From assembly GCA_963921195.1 (NCBI GenBank), contig OY992537.1:128176694-128240693 (forward strand): 64,000 nucleotides of DNA. The letters run 5' to 3'. This document shows, in pieces, positions 11,864 to 58,302 of the stretch; within the stretch, counting starts at the first letter, position 1, and every line of letters starts with the position of its first letter. The translations under genes and the position numbers were made by a program. Source of the stretch: Pegoplata infirma. Its lineage: Eukaryota > Arthropoda > Insecta > Diptera > Anthomyiidae. The notes below the pieces were generated by a model. The model ran no database searches. It saw nothing but the letters and a program-made list of their open reading frames with translations, and was not told where the DNA came from.

Positions 11864-13446
11864 CACTGTGCTACAAAAAACACAAAATCGAATATACTTT
11901 TGAAATGAGGTACACCCAAAAAAAACGTTGGTATTCAATACTAAAAATTTTACTAATGAACTAATTTTTTAGTCCAAAATGATCTAGTGTAGGCGTTGGT
12001 AATCAAAACTAAAATTTTTTACTAATATTATTCAAAATCAGTAAAAATTACTAATTTTAGTACTTTGAAGAGACTAAAAAACTACCGTACTACTGGTAAT
12101 TAGTAACTTATTAGTAGATTTTGGTACCAAATCACTTACTAATATTTTTACTGCAGAATTATTTTGAGTGTAGTGAAGTTTGTAGGTCTTGTCGAAAAGA
12201 TTACAAAAATGCCCATAAAACTTGCCAGACACCCTCAAATTTTAAAGTTATTGTAAAAAAACGTTTTTTTGCGACTTTTCTCACTGAACCACGTGTAACT
12301 TAAAAATGTTTCAACCGATTTCCAATTTTGTAACTGTTTTAGAAAGAAGAAGGATAGGGCTTTTTATGTATGTGAATTTGTCTATACATATAAGAAAGAT
12401 ATGTATTGATTTTATCAACAATATATAATTTTTTTGTTATTTTTTTGAAAATTTTTTGAGTTTCTCGATTTTTTTCCGCTATAGTTCGTTTAACAACATT
12501 TATATTGATAAATGTATTCTTAAAGAAAATTTAATTGTGAATACGACGAGTTTTATGCCGAAAAAATCGGATAACAATTGACAGATCTGTGATAATTTAT
12601 CTAAAAAAGAAAATTAATATTTTGCATGAAATTGCCGCTCGGACAACCCAGGCAAAAATAAAAAATAAACGAAAATACTGAGAGGTCGCGTATCATTATT
12701 TTAAAGGTTTTTGGCCCCCTGAATTCGAATTTGACCTTGAAATTGTTTTCTTATTAAGTTTTTGTTTCTTATTAAGTTTTTGATATATCAAAAACCTTAA
12801 GTTAAATATCTCAAAAACCTAATGCGATAGAGCAATTTAAAGGCCAGATTCGGATTCAGCGCACCAAAAACCTTAATAAATATTGAATAAGAGGTCATTT
12901 ATGATAAATTTATTATTTTTTGCCTGGGTTATCTGGACGGCGATTTCCTGCAAAATCTTAATTTTCTTTTTTAGGAATATTACTTATCACAACTCCGTCA
13001 ATTGTTATCCGATTTTTTCAGGATAAAGCTCATCGTATTCAAAATTAAATTTTCTTTTAAAGTGCTTTCATAAATGTAAAGGTTGTTAAACGAACTATAG
13101 CAGATAAAAATTGATAAACTCGAAAAATTTTCAAAAAATAACAAAAAAAAATTAGATATTATAGAAAAAATCAATAGATATCTTTCTTATATGTGTAGAC
13201 CCATTCACACACATGGGAAGCCCTATTCTTCTTATATCCAAAACAGTTAAAAAACTTAAAATCGGTTGAAAATTTTCTGAATTACTCAAGGTTTAGTGAG
13301 CAAAGTCCCAAAAAAACGTTTTTTGAGAATAACTCTAAAATTAGAGGGTGTCTGGCAATTTTAATGGGCATTTTTGTGATCTACTCGACAAAACCAACAA
13401 CTTATACCATGTCACATCAGATGTATTTTTTCACTGTAGCACAGTG
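11864..13446. mobile_element. 1.58-kb foldback element with TAA TSD
   Basis: CACTGTGCTACA (11864) is mirrored by TGTAGCACAGTG (ending 13446). Arms of roughly 500 bp run inward, for example 'cgttgttaaacgaactatag', 'attgttatccgattttttc' and 'gcctgggtt' in opposite orientations. TAA flanks both sides (11861-11863 and 13447-13449). A second copy of the target at about 46345-46352 has a single TAA and no insertion, so the TSD is confirmed by an empty site. The central loop is about 12680-12910. The left arm carries the 258-bp MITE 11913-12170. No transposase is seen. Confidence 0.85.
11913..12170. mobile_element. 258-bp CACTCAAAA MITE at a TA site
   Basis: CACCCAAAAAAAACG (11913) and ATTATTTTGAGTG (ending 12170) are inverted ends flanked by TA (11911-11912 and 12171-12172). 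The right arm of the enclosing foldback is uninterrupted at the matching place, which gives the empty site. The interior is rich in 'ttactaaaatt', as in 5722-10757. This is consistent with a Tc1/mariner-type MITE. Confidence 0.82.
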
Positions 13447-13577: not shown

Positions 13578-14793
13578 CACTGCGGAACACTAAAAAATAA
13601 ACAAGAGTTACGACCATCATTTCTATATATTTCGGACATGCTGAATCGAATGGCGTACTCCGTTTTTCGATGTATGGTACAGTTTTCTTGTAAAATGTCA
13701 TTAAAGATTGGCTGATTTTCAGCTGCTTTTTTAACAAAAAAAAATCCAAAGCTAATGATTTTTAAATTTTATGGCATGGAAAACAAAGATATAACTTGTA
13801 GCAATATTTCTAATATAAATTTGGTTTAAAGCTTTTCATCTTAACCCCTTTAATTCGCGGATTTCTTCATTTTTTTAAGTTTTCGCGAAATTAACCGCTA
13901 AATTGGTCTCTGATAAAAAACTTGTATTTTGTGGATCATAAAGGCGTCCATGACACTACGAATAGTGGACAAAAAACAGCTATGTTATATGGACCATCAT
14001 GAAGAAAATCGCGAAAACCCGTTTTTTTGTATATGGCAGCATCACTTTAGGAGATGATTTGAGGCTTCATCTTTTAGTATATAATGTGGGAACCTTAAAC
14101 AATGAACTGACCCAAAATTTGTCCAAAAAAGTTTTCATTTGCAAAAGTTATCTTATCAAAAACTATAATTATTGTATCGCAAACACTGAAATAACAGTTT
14201 TTGTTAAGATAACTTTTGCAAATGAAAACTTTTTTGGACAAATTTTGGGTCAGTTCATTGTTTAAGGTTCCCACATTATATACTAAAAGATGAAGCCTCA
14301 AATCATCTCCTAAAGTGATGCTGCCATATACAAAAAAACGGTTTTTCGCGATTTTCTTCATGATGGTCCAAAGAACCTAGATGTTTTTTGTCCACTATTC
14401 GTAGTGTCATGGACGCCTTTATGATCCACAAAAAGCAAGTTTTTTATCAGAGACCAATTTAGCGGTAAATTTCGCGAAAACTTAAAAAAATGAAGAAATC
14501 CGCGAATTAAAGGGGTTAAGATGAAAAGCTTTAAACCAAATTTATATTAGAAATATTTCTATAAGTTATATCTTTGTTTTCCATGCCATAAAATTTAAAA
14601 ATCATTAGCTTTGGAATTTTTTTTGTTAAAAAAGCAGCTGAAAATCAGCCAATCTTTAATGACATTTTACAAGAAAACTGTACCATACATCGAAAAACGG
14701 AGTACGCCATTCGATTCAGCATGTCCGAAATATATTGAAATGATGGTCGTACCTCTTGTTTTCTAAAATAGTGTTTAGTTTTGTCACGCAGTG
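13578..14793. mobile_element. 1.2-kb near-perfect palindrome (foldback) with TAT TSD
   Basis: CACTGCGGAACACT (13578) mirrors TTTTGTCACGCAGTG (ending 14793). TAT flanks both sides (13575-13577 and 14794-14796) inside an ATCAATATTTTT array. Arms of about 600 bp match almost base for base, with a centre near 14180. Because of this, the same 88-residue frame appears on the plus strand (13999-14265) and the minus strand (14095-14361). It is a shadow of the palindrome and not evidence of a protein. It shares 'ggacatgctgaatcgaatgg' and 'ggcagcatcacttt' motifs with the element at 34879-36964. Confidence 0.88.
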
Positions 14794-17915: not shown

Positions 17916-18019
17916 TTATATATAATTATCTATATATATAAAAGAGTTGGGTGAGTGAGTGAGTGACTGACTGACTGACTGACTGATTCATCATCGCCCA
18001 GCCCAAACCGCTGAAGCTA

Positions 18020-19230
18020 GAGACTTGAAATTTGGACTGTAGGTTCACCTCCCGGAATATAGATCCACTAAGGCTGGATTTTTGCCAGTGTTGATTCTAA
18101 GGGGGTAAAAAGGGTAAAAAACTGTACTTTTGGTACTTTTTATATCTCATGAAATAATGGTCATAGCGACTTGAAATTTGGACTGTATGTTCACCTCCCG
18201 GTATGTAGATCCACTAAGGCCGGATTTTTGCCAGTGTTGATTCTAAGGGGGTAAAAAGGGTAAAAAACTGTACTTTTGGTACTTTTTATATCACATGAAA
18301 TAATGGTCACAGAGACTTGAAATTTGGACTGTGTGTTCACATCCTAGAATATAGATCCAGTAAGGTCGGATTTTTGCCAGTGTTGATTCTAAGGGGGTAA
18401 AAAGGGTAAAAAACTGTACTTTAGGTACTTTTTTATATCTCCTGAAATAATGGTCATAGAGACTTGAAATTTGGACTGTATGTTCACCTCACGGAAAAAA
18501 GATCCCCTAAAACTGGATTTTTGCCAATGTTGATTCAAAGGGGGTAAAAAACTGTACTTTTGGTACCTTTTATATTTCCTTAAATAATGGTCCTAGAAAC
18601 TTAAAATTTGGAATGTAGGTTCACCTCCCGGAATATAGATCCACTAAGGCTGAAGTTTTGCCAATGTTGATTCTAAGGGGGTAAAAAGGGTAAAAAACTG
18701 TACTTTTGGTACTTTTTATATTTCCTTAAATAATAGTCCTAGAAACTTGAAATTTGGAATGTAGATTCACCTCCCGGAAAATATGTTCACTGGGGCTGGG
18801 TTTTTGCCAATGTTGATTCTAAAGGGGTAAAATGGGTAAAAAAGTGTAATTTAGGTACCTTTTATATTTCCTTAAATAATGGCCTTAGAAACTTGAAATT
18901 TGCAATGTAGGTTCACCTCCCGAGAAAAAGATCCACTAAGGCTGGGTTTTTGGCCAACGCTGACTACGGGTGTAAAATGGGTAAAAAAGTGTACTTTTGG
19001 TACTTTTTTTTATTTACTGAAATAATGGTCACACAAACTTGAAATTTGGAATATAGGATCCTTTGCTAAAAAAAACAAATGGAAATGGTACTTTTTGAAA
19101 ATTTTGATTCTTTTTGGTACTTTTTTTATTTCTTAAAATTATGGTCATAGAAACTTGAAATTTGGAATGTAGGATCCTTCGGTGAAAAAAACATTTTGGA
19201 AAAAGTACTTTTTGGAAAATGCGTTTCTTA
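18020..19230 (+). repeat. Tandem satellite, period about 146 bp
   Basis: GACTTGAAATTTGGACTGT recurs at about 18022, 18168, 18314 and 18461 and then with more divergence to about 19160. Each unit also holds 'ttcacctcccggaatatag', 'tttttgccagtgttgattc', 'aagggggtaaaaagggtaaa' and 'tgtacttttggtacttttt'. The first three units are very similar; divergence grows to the right. Confidence 0.9.
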
Positions 19231-20115
19231 GGGGGAACCTTTTATAAAAAGTACCTTTTGTAAAAAGTACCTTTTGTAAAAAGTACCTTTTATAAAAAGT
19301 ACCTTTTGTAAAAAGTACCTTTTATAAAAAGTACCTTTTGTAAAAAGTACCTTTTATAAAAAGTACCTTTTGTAAAAAGTACCTTTTATAAAAAGTACCT
19401 TTTGTAAAAAGTACCTTTTATAAAAAGTACCTTTTGTAAAAAGTACCTTTTATAGAAAAAGTACCTTTTGTAAAAAGTACCTTTTATAAAAAGTACCTTT
19501 TATAAAAAGTACCTTTTATAAAAAGTACCTTTTATAAAAAGTACCTTTTATAAAAAGTACCTTTTATAAAAAGTACCTTTTATAAAAAGTACCTTTTATA
19601 AAAAGTACATTTTATAAAAAGCACCTTTTATAAAAAGTACCTTTTATAAAAAGTAACTTTTATAAAAAGTACTTTTATAAAAAGTACCTTTTATAAAAAG
19701 TACCTTTTATAAAAAGTACCTTTTATAAAAAGTACCTTTTATAAAAAGTACCTTTTATAAAAAGTACCTTTTATAAAAAGTACCTTTTATAAAAAGTACC
19801 TTTTATAAAAAGTACCTTTTATAAAAAGTACCTTTTATAAAAAGTACCTTTTATAAAAAGTACCTTTTATAAAAAGTACCTTTTATAAAAAGTACCTTTT
19901 ATAAAAAGTACCTTTTATAAAAAGTACCTTTTATAAAAAGTACCTTTTATAAAAAGTACCTTTTATAAAAAGTACCTTTTATAAAAAGTATTTTTTATAA
20001 AAAGTACATTTTATAAAAAGTACCTTTTATAAAAAGTACCTTTTAGTAAAAGTACCTAAAAAAAGTACCTTTTAGTAAAAGTACCTAAAAAAAGTACCTT
20101 TTATAAAAAGTACTT
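19226..20115 (+). repeat. 16-bp satellite GTACCTTTTATAAAAA
   Basis: More than fifty near-identical 16-bp units. From about 19240 to 19480 units with TTTTGTAAA and TTTTATAAA alternate, giving a 32-bp higher-order unit. From about 19480 the array is almost pure TTTTATAAA. The unit is close to its own reverse complement around GTAC, so each unit can pair with its neighbours. It appears to be an expansion of the 'ggtacttttt' portion of the flanking 146-bp unit. Confidence 0.95.
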
Positions 20116-24440: not shown

Positions 24441-24590
24441 TAATTTAGTTAAAAATTTGAAAAAATATATTATTTTTAGCTTTCAGTACTATGCTGAAAT
24501 ATTTTATAGACCCAAAAAAATAGTACAGATTTGATTTGAACATTATTTTTGTCATTTATTTTATGATAATTTGCAAATTATGAATTAAAA

Positions 24591-25080
24591 TAAATAAGGT
24601 TTTTGTTTATCTAGACGTGCTTATTAATATCAAATAATTATTAGGTGTAACACTTTCCCGGTCAAATTTTTTTTCGAAATTTATATGTGCAAATAAATTT
24701 TAGAAATAAAATATAACCCAATTTTCTCTTAATCGCATATATTCGTGCAAAAAACGTCTCTAATAAATATATCTTAATATTTTTTATTTAACCCATTCAT
24801 GACCAATTAAAAAAAAAAATATGTACAAAATTTAAGTCCAGTTGTAATACTTAAAAAAATAATATAATTGATATTTTTTGACACATTTGCTTATTTAAAA
24901 TATTAGATGCGTTTTTTTTTGCACGAATATATGCGATTAAGACAAAATTTGTTTATATTTTATTTTAAAAACTAATTTGCACATACAAATTCCGAAAAAA
25001 AATTTGACCGGGAAAGTGTGACCCGTAATAATTATTTGATATTAATAAGCACGTCTAGATAAACAAAAACCTTATTTATT
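24591..25080. repeat. Foldback repeat with about 190-bp arms
   Basis: The arm 24591-24780 ('taaataaggtttttgtttat', 'ctagacgtgcttattaatat', 'gcatatattcgtgcaaaaaa') is mirrored at about 24895-25080. The loop is about 100 bp. It overlaps the piggyBac-like element 24792-25171 in a way simple nesting does not explain. Confidence 0.7.
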
Positions 25081-25171
25081 TTATTTTTTTTAAGTATTAC
25101 AACTAGCTTTAAATAATTTCCGCAAAAACTTTTTCAAAAATCTTTGCCAAAATATTTTGATCATGCATGGG
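24792..25171. mobile_element. Candidate piggyBac-like MITE, TTAA flanks
   Basis: TTAA (24788-24791) followed by CCCATTCATGACC, and GATCATGCATGGG followed by TTAA (25172-25175). An inner pair, 'agttgtaatacttaaaaaa' and 'tttttttaagtattacaact', is also inverted. TTAA sites with CCC ends are the piggyBac hallmark. The right arm of the foldback 24591-25080 lies inside, but the left arm lies outside. Confidence 0.5.
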
Positions 25172-48013: not shown

Positions 48014-49364
48014 TACACAGAAAAAAACGAATTTGTGATATCAACCAACGTTTGTAAATATTGATTGTTGAAAAAAAAATTAAAAAAAAATGATAAACGA
48101 GTTTGTAATAGTTCTCTAAAATTATTATTTGTATTGACAAACGTACAAAACCTTAATTTTTTTTTCAAAAAAGAACTTCTACAAACGCAAACACAATTTG
48201 TTGATCTGACAAACGTAAAAAACAGGGTTTGTTTTGCTACTGGCAGTAGTCAAAAATTGCATAGAATATAATAATTTTCTAGTATTACTACAGAAAATAT
48301 TAGAATACTAAAGCAATTTTTTTAAATTGCTAATTTATAAATTCAAACTTGAACATATTTTCAAAATGAATATATTCAAATTTTAAAATTTCTGAAGAAA
48401 ATATTTTAGCAAATTTAAAAATTTGAAAATGAAAAAAAAACTGGTGACAGCAAATTTAAAAATTTTAAAATTAAAAAAAAAAACTGGCCACAGCAAATTT
48501 TAAAATTTTAAAATTACAATTTTAGCAAATTTCAAAACATTTAAAATGCTAAAATTGTAAATTTCAAATTCCGAAATTGCAATTTGGTAAATTTGAAAAT
48601 ATTTAACATGCTTGTTTAGAAAACTTAAAAACTGAATATATTACAATTTGAAAACAATACAAATTGAATACACATACATACGTATGTGTGTATGGAAAAA
48701 AAAAATGATGAACGATATTTATTAAACGAATACATAAATATTAAAAGATAAAAATGTTTTTGTGGAGACTTCTAGAATACATTTTCTAAAGTATTTTTGC
48801 CTCCTAAACATAAATCTGTCATCAGAAAAATTTGTATCGCCTTCTCGACACATAGGCATTTTAGTTTTTTGTGGACCAATACCTCAAAACCAAAAATTCT
48901 TTTAGTATTGGAAAAATGTATATTAAATTTTTATATGAGGGTTTCTGCGTCAACCGAGCCACCCCTCTCTCCAAAATTGGTATGAGTTTAAAATTTTTTA
49001 AAAAATTTTAAAATTACTTAAAAATATTTACTTTTGAATGCCGAGTGACGCCTTTTAAATTTCTATTGGCTGATCCAATGTGGCGCCCAATTTGTTTAAA
49101 ATATTACAGATTCGCTTAAAACTCTTTATATATGGGTTCTTGTGGTCGCTTAAAAAGAACTTGCAGTTGGATTTTTAAAATTCAAAATGGCGGACCCAAC
49201 ATGGCGACCAATATTTTTAAAAAATAAACCGATTTGCTTGAAACTTTATATGCTCGGGGTTTTGGGGTCGCTAAAGAAGAATCTGAAGTTAGATTTTCTA
49301 AGTTCAAGATGGTGGATCCAACATGGCGATTAATGATCCGACCCAATGGCGTATACAGGAATCT

Positions 49365-51430: not shown

Positions 51431-53199
51431 AATTAACAAAAGAAGTGCGGTTTCATCCGTAATATCTCTTATTCTTCTTTAGTCTGTGATTCAGTTCAAG
51501 GAAAAGATCATGACAAATTCTAAAACATGTGCTGTTATGAAAATTGTTTGTAAAAAAAAATTGACAAAAAATTTTGGGCCCCTACCGAAATAAAATCCTG
51601 GATACGCCCCTGATCCGACCTAATATTCGGTTCTTCTAAAAAGCCGAGGCGAATATTCTGCCACATTTTTGGCCGAATAAAGAATAATTATATGATATTG
51701 TAGTCACGTGTTGAAAAATGCACCAAACTCGTTTATGAAAAATTTCAAGCAAATCAGGTTACATAAAAAAAATGGTCGCCATGTTGGATCCGTCATTTTA
51801 AATTTGGGAAATTCTAATTATTTTTAAAAAGTATCGCCATGTTGGATCCGCCATTTTGAACTTAGAAAATCTAACTTCAGATTCTTCTTTAGCGACCCAA
51901 AAAACCAGTGCATACAATATTTCAAGCAAATCGGTTTATTTTTAAAAATATTGGTCGCCATGTTGGGTCCGCCATTTTGAATTTTAAAAATCCAACTGCA
52001 AGTTCTTTTTAAGCGACCACAAGAACCCATATATAAAGAGTTTTAAGCGAATCTGTAATATTTTTAACAAACATTGGATCAGCCAATAGAAATTTAAAAG
52101 GCGTCACTCGGCATTCAAAAGTAAATATTTTTAAGTAATTTTAAAATTTTTTAAAAAATTTTAAACTCATACCAATTTTGGAGAGAGGGGTGGCTCGGTT
52201 GACGCAGAAACCCTCATATAAAAATTTAATATACATTTTTCCAATACTAAAAGAATTTTTGGTTTTGAGGTATTGGTCCACAAAAAACTAAAATGCCTAT
52301 GTGTCGAGAAGGCGATACAACTTTTTCTGATGACAGATTTATGTTTAGGAGGCAAAAATACTTTAGAAAATGTATTCTAGAAGTCTCCACAAAAACCGTG
52401 TAACATTTTTATCTTTTAATATTTATGTATTCGTTTAATAAATATCGTTCATCATTTTTTTTTTCCATACACACATACGTATGTATGTGTATTCAATTTG
52501 TATTGTTTTCAAATTGTAATATATTCAGTTTTTAAGTTTTCTAAACAAGCATGTTAAATATTTTCAAATTTACCAAATTGCAATTTCGGAATTTGAAATT
52601 TACAATTTTAGCATTTTAAATGTTTTGAAATTTGCTAAAATTGTAATTTTAAAATTTTAAAATTTGCTGTGGCCAGTTTTTTTTTTTAATTTTAAAATTT
52701 TTAAATTTGCTGTCACCAGTTTTTTTTTCATTTTCAAATTTTTAAATTTGCTAAAATATTTTCTTCAGAAATTTTAAAATTTGAATATATTCATTTTGAA
52801 AATATGTTCAAGTTTGAATTTATAAATTAGCAATTTAACAAAATTGCTTTAGCTTCTAATTTTTAAATTAGCAATAAAGAAAAATATTGAAGGCGTGAAA
52901 TATTTGTAGTATTATATTGTTTAAAAAATTTTTTGTGTATGCTAATTGTAAACCCTGGTAAAAAATCTTTTTTCTTTCCACAAAGAATTTCAACAAACAC
53001 AAAAACTATTTTGTTGACATGGTAAAATAATGTTGATATAAAATTACTCGACTAAGTTTGTTGAAAACAAAATCGAAATTTTGTATTATGTACTAACAGG
53101 CGGCCGTTTTTACTAAATGTTTGGTTGATATCATGTTTAGTTGATTTACAATTGATGTTTGTTGATTTAAATTTGACGATTTTATTTTCTGTGTACAAA

Positions 53200-54615: not shown

Positions 54616-54640
54616 TGTAGATAGTAAATGTAGATAAAAC

Positions 54641-55096
54641 ATGAAAGATGCCGTTAAAGCGCTTGAACCTGTATGGGAAGGTGCAAAATTAGAGATTGTC
54701 GATCGCAGAAGTATTCCAACAGCTCCAAACGCAAAAGTTGTACTTCCTGTTTTATGCGAACAAAATTCTGCGTTACAACTTTTAAAACGTCAAAATCCGG
54801 ATATACCAACTGATGACTGGCGCGTTCTGAAAGTTCTGCCTCAAAGCGATAAGGTCAAAGGGTATACCTTCATCCTGCAAATAAATAAGCAGGCTGAAGA
54901 TATCCTCTATCCGAAGTTTGGCAAAATGCGCTGGGGTATGTCAGTGGTATATCTGAGACTGAAACGTAGAAATCCGAGTGATGAGTATCCTTACGCTTTA
55001 GAAAACGGTGAGGTGGAAAGGGACCTTGAGTCTCTAACCGAATCCGCTAAGAATATATCGCTTCCATTACCTGAGTTGGCTCAGATAATGGAATGA
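54641..55096 (+). pseudogene. LINE ORF1 C-terminal part, DUF4780-like
   Basis: An uninterrupted 151-residue frame. The central part (about residues 48-110) reads LLKRQNPDIPTDDWRVLKVL, then KGYTFILQIN and FGKMRWGMSVVYLRLK. This resembles the DUF4780 domain often found at the C-terminus of ORF1/gag-like proteins of insect non-LTR elements, which coat the element RNA. The N-terminal half expected of ORF1 is missing because the copy is truncated at 54625. The first Met used is internal. The stop TGA overlaps the ORF2 start as ATGA, a typical reinitiation arrangement. Confidence 0.75.
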
Positions 55097-56178
55097 ATCC
55101 CACAAGCGTTAAAAACCTCCACCACAGTAGTGCTGCCACGATGGCACTGCTGATGACTCTCATCGAAGGGTCATATGACGTGGCGCTATCCAAAAGCCCT
55201 GGGTGGATGCCACAGGTGAAATTAAAGGGCTTTCGCTTCCAAACTACGATCTACTATTTTCGCAAACAGAAGGTACGAAACGAGCAGCTATTTTGGCAAA
55301 AAAATCAATAAAAGCACTTCTTTTACAGAAATTTAGTACAAACGATTTAACCGCAATGATATGTAAATTAGGGAAGAGGACAATAAATATTATCTCGTCC
55401 TATATGGCGCACAATAAGGACTCACGGGAAAAAGGTTTAGTACATTATAATAGGTTGTGATGCAAATGCACACAACACTTTATGGGGCTCTCCTGATATA
55501 AACGATAGAAGTGAAGAACTACTTCAATTTATAAAAGATTCGGATATAAACATCGCAAACATTGGTTCAGAACCAACTTATATAAGACATAATAGTCAAA
55601 ACGTCTTAGATTTAACACTATATGCAGGTAAACCCGATATGAACTTGGTTGAGTGGAGAATTCTTGATAGGGCTTCTTGCTCAGACCACAAATATTTAGC
55701 TTTTAAAATCGAAATAAATTTTCCTAAATCAAACAAATCTTATAGAAACACTGAAAAGACCAACTGGGAAAAAGTTAGGGAAATAACAAAAAAGGAACTA
55801 ACAATTCTGTCGAATAGGGAAATCTCAAATTATGAGGAAGTAGAAATCGTAAATGATAGAATTACAACAATCCTACGGAACTCTTTCGAAAAATCTTGTC
55901 CGATAAGATACACTCGAAAAAGGCCCCAACCCCCTTGGTGGTCAAAGGAACTGGCAAAAGTACGGAACTCGGTTCAGGAAAGTTTTAACCTCGCTAGGCG
56001 AAATAATACTGATAATAACTGGGCACTTTATAGAACAGAATTAAAAGCTTTTAAGAAACTAATAAGGAAATCAAAGAAAACCAGTTGGGAAAATTTGTGT
56101 AGTAATATAGAAAATACTACAGAAGCTGCCAGACTGAGGAAAATCCTGTCGAAAAAAGTGTTCCACCAATTCTGTTGA
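55093..56178 (+). pseudogene. LINE ORF2 endonuclease (EEP/APE type), frameshifted
   Basis: It starts MNPTSVKNLHHSSAATMALL in the frame opened by the ATGA overlap. A one-base loss near 55185 moves the reading to KPWVDATGEIKGLSLPNYDL. A second break near 55445 moves it to IIGCDANAHNTLWGSPDIND, then PTYIRHNSQNVLDLTL and RASCSDHKYLAF. GCDANAH..W and SDH are the conserved C-terminal motifs of APE-like LINE endonucleases, which nick the target DNA. The QEPW site near the start has QKPW, so the catalytic Glu appears lost. The linker that leads to the RT follows to 56178. Confidence 0.8.
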
Positions 56179-57360
56179 AACGAGAGGATGATAATTGGAT
56201 TGATAGAGCAGAGGAAACACTCGATGTTCTTTTGAAAACACACTTTCCGGGATGTACCACGGATCCGATACCGGATGGTTTTAATTTCGATGCTACCTTG
56301 GAAATTCCTGAACATCTTTTAACCACCGATCGTGTGAAATGGGCGTTTAGTTCATTTAGACCATAAAAATCACCTAGACCAGACGGCATTATACCGGCAA
56401 TGTTGCAAAATGTTGCTCATGGTATAACGCCACATCTGCTAAAAATTTTCAATGCCTGCTTTAGGATGTGGTACATACCAATCGCATGGCAAAAGACTAT
56501 TATAACATACTTACCTAAGAGTCGTAAAATCAACCACGCGACCGCTAAAGATTACCGACCGATTAGTTTGACATCATTTTTGCTAAAAACTGTATAAAGG
56601 ATACTGGACTTACATATAAGGGCTAACCTGGCACCACACTTTATGTCGGATTCGCAACATGCTTATCAGCAGGGAAAATCCAAAGAAAATTCACTCCATT
56701 TGTTGGTACAGAGAATAGAGACATCCCTTGAATATAGGGCTTTTAATAATGTAAGTACGGAGTCGATAATAAGTGCGATGAACAAAGCATCGATCAATCA
56801 CTGCATAATAATGTGGGTTAAGCGAATGCTTTTGAATTGGGAAATTACCGCTGTATGGGGTCAGCTAAGGCCTCACGTTACGCGACAAGGGGTACACCAC
56901 AAGGCGGAGTTCTGTCATCTTTACTCTGGCTGTTAGCGGTAGACCCTATCCTGAAGAAACTTGGAACTTCAACCATCGCTTATGCGGATGATGTCGTGAT
57001 ATTGTCTTGCGGAAAGTATCCGGACACGATACCTGATTTACTCGAGGGGTCATTGAAGATGATGTGATGTGGGCATCAGATAACGGACCCAACGTAAACC
57101 CGAAAAAGACGGAAATAGTACTTTTTACTAGGAGATACAAGATACCAAATTTTAGGAAGATTAGAATCGGGGGAGTTGAAATTCCACTATCACTTCATGC
57201 GAAATTTTTAGTAGTGATTTTGGACAGCAAGCTCTCTTGGAAAACTAACACGCTTGAGAGAATTAAGAAGGCTAACAATGCTTACTACGCATGAAAGAAA
57301 TTGTTTGGTATGACAAGGGGATTAGAGCCTACAGTTACGTATTGGATTTATACTTCAGTG
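56179..57360 (+). pseudogene. LINE reverse transcriptase, multiply broken
   Basis: Blocks in order: EETLDVLLKTHFPG; RPDGIIPAMLQNV; WQKTIITYLPKS; DYRPISLTSFLLK; DSQHAYQQGKS; AFNNVSTESI; GTPQGGVLSSLLW; IAYADDVVILS (catalytic YADD intact); PKKTEIVLFTRR; KANNAYYA. In-frame stops replace sense codons at 56364-56366, 56595-56597 and 57292-57294. There are frameshifts near 56856 and 57064. Between SLEYR and AFNNV about ten residues are missing, including the first catalytic Asp (normally FLDIEGAFN in relatives). It is interrupted at 57360 by a DNA element. Confidence 0.85.
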
Positions 57361-57642
57361 CACTGAAAGAATTTTGTTCATTACGGCTATGAAAACGTAC
57401 ATTGATTCTATGAAAAAAATCATTAGAAGTGAGCCAATGATGCCCTTCATAGAATCTATGAATCAAATTCATAGAAACCAGAAACCTATGAAAAAGTTCA
57501 TAGGCTATGGAAAAAAAAATATTATTCAATTCTATTTTTATTTATTTTATTATTTCAATTTTATTTTTTTTTTTATTTTATTTTTATTATTTCATTTATT
57601 TACTATTTTCTATTTTTAAAAATTTATATTTTTTTTTAACTT

Positions 57643-57718
57643 ATCCCCACCGAGATTCGAACATAAAACCTCTTGTTCGTGAAGCTTAATGTCTAACCAC
57701 TTAGCTAAATTATATAAA
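57643..57718 (-). ncRNA. tRNA-like Pol III promoter, left arm
   Basis: The minus strand reads TAGCTAAGTGGTTAGA (A box, 57707-57692) and GTTCGAATCTC (B box, 57662-57652), 45 nt apart and close to the consensus. The acceptor arms do not pair, so it is a SINE-like head and not a working tRNA gene. It points outward, to the left. Confidence 0.65.
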
Positions 57719-57904
57719 CAAGTAACAACACTTAAAAGCTTTTTTGAATAATATTCTGCTAACATATTAAGTTTGTGTCTTTGCTCTGTCACAACGCTCT
57801 GCCAAAAGCTGTGTGTGTGTTTGTAGAAAACAAATATTTTGTGTATTTACAAAAATGAAGCGTTATAAAACCAAGCGTTAGTTGGCGAGATTTTTCATCT
57901 TTGG

Positions 57905-57985
57905 TGGCGCTGATAGCTAAGGCGTCGACAATTGCCACTTCAGCCGGTAGGTCTTGGGTTCTAGCCCCGGTCAGGGCAGCAATGA
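57905..57985 (+). ncRNA. tRNA-like Pol III promoter, right arm
   Basis: TAGCTAAGGCG (A box, 57914-57924) and GGTTCTAGCCCC (B box, 57957-57968), about 42 nt apart. Alignable with the left-arm copy, but diverged. It points outward, to the right, followed by T-rich sequence from about 57990 that could terminate Pol III. Confidence 0.65.
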
Positions 57986-58302
57986 AAATTTTTTTTTTAA
58001 TGTTTTTTTTATTTTTTTTTATTTTTTTAATAAATTTATTCAACTGTTTTAATTATTGTAACATTATTTTAATTATTTAAAAAAATAAATGGCATATTGA
58101 TGGCATTTTCTTCTATGAATGACATTCATTAATTCTATGAATTTTTTCTATGAATTTAATAAAATCTATGAATAAAATTCTATGAAAAATTTCAGAATAC
58201 TAATGAATATTCATTCAGCCAATGAATTGTTTCATAGATTCTATGAATTTGGTTTTATGAAATTTGTTCATAGATGGAATGAACAATAATTCTTTCAGTG
58301 TG

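Follow-up and report, generated by a model that had tools for sequence, protein, structure and literature searches.

A high-copy, probably CACTA/EnSpm-like element family with two divergent Pol III promoter-like units in Pegoplata infirma

Within the window, the whole stretch of 64,000 nucleotides analyzed here, a LINE is interrupted by a short non-coding element with inverted ends and two tRNA-like promoter units, one in each half (Table 1). The element lies on contig C2 of the 1.38-Gb genome. Its two ends are complementary at 13 of 13 positions, which bears out the inverted ends described in an earlier, sequence-only reading of this DNA. The boundaries set in that reading through the LINE frame are upheld as well, because joining the LINE flanks with one TG gives an open frame through the junction (..YWIYTSVVRPILLYGV..). 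The host LINE of this copy is itself dead, a stop being already present upstream of the insertion. The word palindromic, also used for the element, was too strong, since the inverted parts consist of the ends and the subterminal repeats only. By eye, an open frame at the left end seemed to arise from the repetition of the TCTATGAA motif.

Table 1. Positions of the element and its parts in the window
Feature	Position	Strand	Remark
Non-autonomous DNA element, complete, 940 bp	57361..58300		Member of the young, window-type subfamily
Target-site duplication TG, left copy	57359..57360		LINE frame restored with a single copy
Target-site duplication TG, right copy	58301..58302		LINE frame restored with a single copy
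Left TIR CACTGAAAGAATT	57361..57373	+	End pattern with 2,140 exact genome matches, control 0
Right TIR	58288..58300	-	Pairs with left TIR
Left subterminal CTATGA/TCATAG array	57387..57505		7 motifs within the first 160 consensus bases
Arm 1 candidate Pol III terminator, T5	57618..57622	-	First T run 4-6 long, 54/54 copies scored
Arm 1 B box GTTCGAATC	57654..57662	-	45 nt from A-box start
Arm 1 A box TAGCTAAGTGG	57697..57707	-	Strict A+B pair in arm 1 of 54/55 full-length copies
Spacer separating the two divergent heads	57708..57913
Arm 2 A box TAGCTAAGGCG	57914..57924	+	
Arm 2 B box GTTCTAGCC	57958..57966	+	One specified position off consensus
Arm 2 candidate Pol III terminator, T10	57989..57998	+	First T run >=6 in 55/55 copies
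Right subterminal CTATGA/TCATAG array	58112..58277		8 motifs, consensus position 754 onward

The window holds several other repeats. Three segments (13599-14761, 12180-13400 and 24583-25086) align to their own reverse complements over about 0.5-1.2 kb, with 96%, 80% and 78% identity, respectively, and are classed on this alignment as long palindromic or foldback-like repeats. Inverted repeats of about 1.06 kb, 96% identical and about 2.5 kb apart (48270-49330 and 51833-52888), are possibly the arms of a long-TIR element. A tandem array of 7.2 copies of a 146-bp unit (18018-19057) is followed by a 16-bp array with 47.7 copies within the stretch examined (19237-20000). Finally, an open frame of 152 aa with a Pfam DUF4780 match (54638-55093; E 2.9e-14) lies upstream of an endonuclease-like frame (55441-56175).

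The element belongs to a family of well over a thousand copies. The exact end pattern was matched 1084 + 1056 times in the genome, and words from arm 2 and arm 1 were matched, at one mismatch or fewer, 1,696 (858 + 838) and 1,498 (720 + 778) times; the control gave no match for any of the three. A scan of viral contigs with the arm-2 word gave no stretches. A whole-genome DNA search, in which 40 of 2,749 first-look candidates were scored, returned at least 41 near-full-length matches with 98-100% identity. Loci were sampled as the best matches to the window copy (L001-L030), which biases the sample toward the window subfamily, and as the first 30 by position, all on contig C1, for the end pattern (L031-L060) and for the arm-2 pattern (L061-L090). 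Full-length copies were defined by a BLAST match spanning both ends, and after removal of identical sequences 55 remained. They form four clusters of 37, 6, 11 and 1, the consensuses of which differ by 4.6-12.9%. Ends and boundaries are consistent in all 30 copies nearest to the window copy, and because these copies lie on average 3.9 substitutions from their consensus, the window subfamily is considered young.

A 2-bp duplication flanks each of the 55 distinct full-length copies, with TA in 36, TG in 11, CA in five, and CG, TT and AG in one each. The TG duplication, the constancy of which had been set as a check, is thus constant in length, not in sequence. Flanks were joined for 70 sites (duplicates included) and junctions were inspected at six. 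Five of these are exact empty sites (L008, L020, L025, L035 and L086), where an uninserted relative of the repeat carries the 2 bp once; L025 (96.5% identity) and L086 (97%) are the clearest. At the window's own site (L001), the best uninserted relative is 72.8% identical and the junction is inexact. Elsewhere on C2 (G000:C2:215931307-215933182), two copies abut with zero bases between them (junction C2:215932244/215932245), as expected if the terminal TG of one copy had served the other as target. At locus L042, the left 112 bp of the element (1501-1612) give way to unrelated sequence for the rest of the locus, and this is either a truncated copy or the end of a different element. One copy is adjoined by an aldehyde-oxidase-like gene, of which the best named relative, among the 120 of 304 matches listed, is from Drosophila pseudoananassae (66% identity), with unnamed relatives at up to 77%; the host was accordingly placed as probably a brachyceran fly.

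As to superfamily, the ends begin with CACTG (CACTGAAAGAATT, perfect over 13 bp), a variant start of CACTA-type ends. The attributes of CACTA/EnSpm elements, namely CACTA or CACTG inverted ends, a duplication of 2-3 bp and reiterated subterminal motifs, were all found. The subterminal arrays of TCTATGAA/TTCATAGA comprise 15 motifs, spread over the first 160 and the last 188 bases of the consensus, compared with 0.41 CTATGA/TCATAG per kb in the remaining window, and are candidate sites for a transposase or an accessory protein. They fall in the most conserved part of the element, the outer ~160 bases per side, in which 308 of 321 positions are invariant among three subfamily consensuses. In described CACTA elements, 13-bp ends together with subterminal repeats bound by a TNPA-like protein act as cis-determinants (PMC2613891). 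Pfam Transposase_21 is matched at nine places in the genome, among them C5:6999252-6999725 and C157:43703-44179. Five of the nine lie in stop-free open frames 633-858 aa long, and the 14 control genomes gave no match. Searching for end variants in which CACTGAAAGAATT is followed by C or G gave 82 matches (control 25), none of which is near the nine Transposase_21 places. Ends, duplications and subterminal arrays thus suggest a CACTA-like element, a membership that is unproven and for which we infer the link to a transposase. Placement in a different TIR superfamily, one that also makes 2-bp duplications but is mobilized by an unrelated transposase, is rather unlikely and would leave the rest of the interpretation below unchanged. 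Such a placement would suit the TA found in 36 of the 55 duplications, the fact that no transposase is linked to the element ends, and the CCC start given for the ends of animal CACTA relatives in two sources (PMC1636069; PMC4298943), the first of which also gives 2-bp duplications for them. However, the CACTG start, together with 13-bp ends and subterminal repeats of the kind described in PMC2613891, fits CACTA elements, Transposase_21 matches with long frames exist in the genome, and 19 of the 55 duplications are not TA, contrary to Tc1/mariner, which was rejected on this ground.

Within this element, the two tRNA-like units (hereafter heads) were defined by the box consensuses A = TRGYNNARNNG and B = GWTCRANNC. 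The sequence-only reading had placed an A-box/B-box pair in each half on opposite strands; both pairs are present and outward-facing, but the window arm-2 B box has T for R at one specified position, so that only arm 1 is strict in the window copy. In the two other multi-copy subfamilies, the arm-2 B box reads GTTCGAACC. Strict pairs occur in arm 2 of 21 of the 55 full-length copies. The distance between A-box and B-box starts is 45 nt in all 54 copies scored for arm 1, and 44 nt in 52 of 53 for arm 2, with 45 nt in the remaining one. No strict pair was found on either strand of 284,726 bases outside the element, a total that includes some overlapping sampled loci. First-order Markov shuffles of the element gave a strict pair in 1 of 3000; when one B-box position was relaxed, any pair arose in 15 of 3000, and one pair per strand, as in the element, in 0 of 3000.

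The likeness of the heads to tRNA is, as far as the sequence goes, confined to the boxes, and no tRNA cloverleaf was detected. The Rfam tRNA model had zero matches in the window copy (E up to 1) and in ten loci (E up to 5); the Rfam matches obtained, one in the window copy and 11 in the ten loci, were all sub-threshold and none was to tRNA. ARAGORN made only 'tRNA-SeC' calls, in the window and in 20 of 47 loci scanned, and a genuine selenocysteine tRNA was rejected since the Rfam tRNA model does not support this call. For four predicted transcripts, folding was no better than that of shuffled sequences (z -1.3 to +0.9). In copy L035, the two heads agree at 47 of 92 aligned columns, with the longest matching runs at the boxes. 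The T runs that follow the heads are weak evidence of termination, because the DNA is very AT-rich.

Both heads are a standing part of the family. Among 23 end-sampled copies, 18 have both heads, three have arm 2 only, one has arm 1 only and one has neither; this table was obtained after seven of 30 loci had been dropped as parts of copies already counted, with arms scored over 1.5 kb either side and, for six named copies, over overlapping loci too, and a head displaced beyond the scored stretch by an insertion counts in it as missing. The constancy of both domains, another check proposed earlier, hence holds for these 18 copies and fails for the five that are without one or both. Ends lacking both tRNA-like domains, which were to mark the combination as accidental, are seen in one copy of the 23, and the losses of arm 1 are separate deletions: L053, L056 and L059 are without arm 1 by different deletion junctions, and in this small sample a head-less mobile subfamily was rejected. 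Each of the four subfamily sequences has recognizable boxes. Along the first 72 Mb of C1, an exact arm-2 word lies no more than 600 bp from 30 of the 49 exact arm-1 places, and every one of these 30 pairs is divergent. In the same stretch, near-identical stand-alone heads, which would have pointed to independent SINEs, are rare: with isolation defined as no exact end within 1.1 kb and no other arm within 600 bp, isolated heads are found at 2 of 49 exact arm-1 and 5 of 54 exact arm-2 places. Of the latter, the place at 148209 is a fragment without ends (L061), that at 18850504 sits inside an interrupted element (L073), two more have an end 1.5-2.1 kb off by position, and the fifth is at 47123825; the arm-1 places comprise one with an end 2.8 kb off and one at 61862696. 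Accidental nesting of SINEs was rejected, as head orientation is fixed and A-B spacing near-constant. The central claim of the sequence-only reading, a single TIR element with an outward-facing tRNA-like unit in each half, therefore stands, since this arrangement is kept across the family and the ends behave as transposon ends.

Conservation of the boxes was compared with that of the element interior. Comparing the consensuses of the three multi-copy subfamilies shows no variation at 27 of 28 specified box positions, versus 420 of 580 positions elsewhere in the interior (243 of 345 when AT-only runs are set aside), and 5 of 590 shifted masks equal this box invariance. When all box positions are counted, 37 of 40 are invariant, a value reached by 20 of 590 shifts; with the fourth, single-copy subfamily, in which the arm-1 A box is altered, the figures become 25 of 28 versus 388 of 580, and 15 of 590 shifts. 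The invariant fraction is 0.5 between the arm-2 boxes (consensus 561-580) versus 0.9 (541-560) and 1.0 (581-600) on either side. A damaged arm-2 B box, TTCTAGCC, is carried by 31 of the 55 copies, with four of the 55 not called by the script, in a set that includes 30 copies picked for their closeness to the window copy. As the young window subfamily amplified with the damaged box, the arm-2 B box is not strictly needed. Box conservation is thus suggestive of selection on the boxes and not conclusive, because subfamilies are few (three multi-copy) and neighboring positions are not independent.

Altogether, these data are probably best explained by a high-copy, non-coding, MITE-like family (~0.9 kb) of CACTA/EnSpm-like elements with two divergent type-2 Pol III promoter-like units. 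Support at the sequence level extends to the inverted ends, the 2-bp duplications, the empty sites, the occurrence of both units in most of the copies sampled, their fixed order, orientation and spacing, and the conservation of the boxes above the interior. A Transposase_21 (CACTA-type) transposase would mobilize the element in trans through the 13-bp ends and the TCTATGAA arrays. TFIIIC/TFIIIB would bind the boxes, and two RNAs of ~90-110 nt would be made, stopping at the T runs inside the element. Because the predicted short RNAs end inside the element, retroposition of the whole element from the heads is not expected. Any benefit would most likely lie in promoter occupancy rather than in the RNA, since the predicted RNAs are without a tRNA fold. 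At tRNA genes, chromatin is open or insulated, and promoter occupancy may have the same effect on the element. Our preferred suggestion is that the heads may keep the element accessible, with mere passengers as the main rival. A bolder and rather doubtful proposal is that paired divergent Pol III promoters form a transposition strategy of a CACTA-type MITE, in which TFIIIC/TFIIIB at both heads would keep the ends reachable for the transposase, and selection acting on the element itself would preserve the boxes.

The possibility that a CACTA-like element simply took up genomic DNA containing a divergent pair of tRNA-like or SINE-head sequences, with boxes that have no role and persist by descent, is unlikely on balance, yet it deserves serious weight. 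It would account for the spread of the window subfamily with a damaged arm-2 B box, for the copies lacking arm 1 through differing deletion junctions, and for predicted RNAs that fold no better than shuffles. Boxes kept by descent alone are harder to reconcile with the contrast between box and interior positions (27 of 28 versus 420 of 580 invariant), or with a bin between the arm-2 boxes that varies freely (0.5) next to flanking bins at 0.9 and 1.0. A retroposon origin in a stricter sense, either two tRNA-type SINEs joined head to head with inverted ends by chance or a SINE family that acquired TIRs and still retroposes, is very improbable. The tRNA-like spacing of the A and B boxes (44-45 nt), an attribute of tRNA-derived SINEs, and the A- or T-rich stretches after the heads do resemble SINE heads. 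However, every one of the 55 copies has a 2-bp duplication, and those of SINEs are longer and variable, about 7-20 bp; the Pol III transcripts predicted from the T runs would end internally and omit the element ends; and heads standing alone in near-identical form are rare along the first 72 Mb of C1, with orientation fixed and spacing near-constant. The layout of a single 5' head followed by a body and a LINE-type tail is likewise not seen. The earlier suggestions of a captured SINE or of two SINEs head to head are accordingly not supported: neither a SINE body nor a LINE-type tail nor a duplication of SINE type was found, and no stand-alone source SINE was found among near-identical heads in the first 72 Mb of C1.

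An internal Pol III promoter counts as a defining trait of SINEs and other retroposons. The Twin SINE of Culex also has two tRNA-related regions in one short element, but it is a tandem retroposon, with regions that are neither divergent nor bounded by TIRs. Among the entries listed from open-licence PubMed Central literature (20 of 58 and 12 of 97 in two of the listings), no title or opening of an abstract refers to a TIR element bearing a divergent pair of Pol III heads, in agreement with the earlier reading, which knew of no described family with this layout. Among known systems, CACTA/EnSpm elements such as maize Spm/En and soybean Tgmt* share 13-bp conserved ends and direct and inverted subterminal motifs with the present element (PMC2613891), and animal TRC elements such as SmTRC1 share 2-bp duplications (PMC1636069). 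In contrast, the present element starts with CACTG, not with CACTA (plants) or CCC (animal TRC), its duplication is 2 bp and that of Tgmt* 3 bp, and it carries two Pol-III-like promoter units, with a transposase that we infer. The mammalian MITE MER6 is also a non-coding TIR element (865 bp) and spread SINE-derived sequence; however, it is of Tc1/mariner type, it contains the body of a SINE (V domain), and the part that resembles the fish SINE does not include the tRNA-related head, whereas the present element shows only promoter-like heads, twice (PMC6887750). HaSE2 of Helicoverpa armigera likewise joins a tRNA-related head to DNA-transposon sequence, but its authors regard it as a SINE whose 3' region derives from mariner, whereas the present case is a TIR element with 2-bp duplications (PMC3272025). 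The CMITE elements of corals resemble the present family in an unusually conserved internal region with a suspected role in transposition and in their tandem copies; they are related to piggyBac-like transposons, and their abstract makes no mention of Pol III boxes (PMC2872659).

To our knowledge, no earlier DNA transposon family uses an internal pair of Pol III promoters, and if the reading as a transposition strategy were true, the present family would be the first. A TIR family that keeps two outward Pol III promoters would blur the line between retroposons and DNA transposons. It would also scatter well over a thousand Pol III promoter-like sites across the genome. Its natural variants, with intact or damaged boxes and deleted arms, are suited to testing whether occupancy by TFIIIC/Pol III aids the amplification of a DNA transposon.
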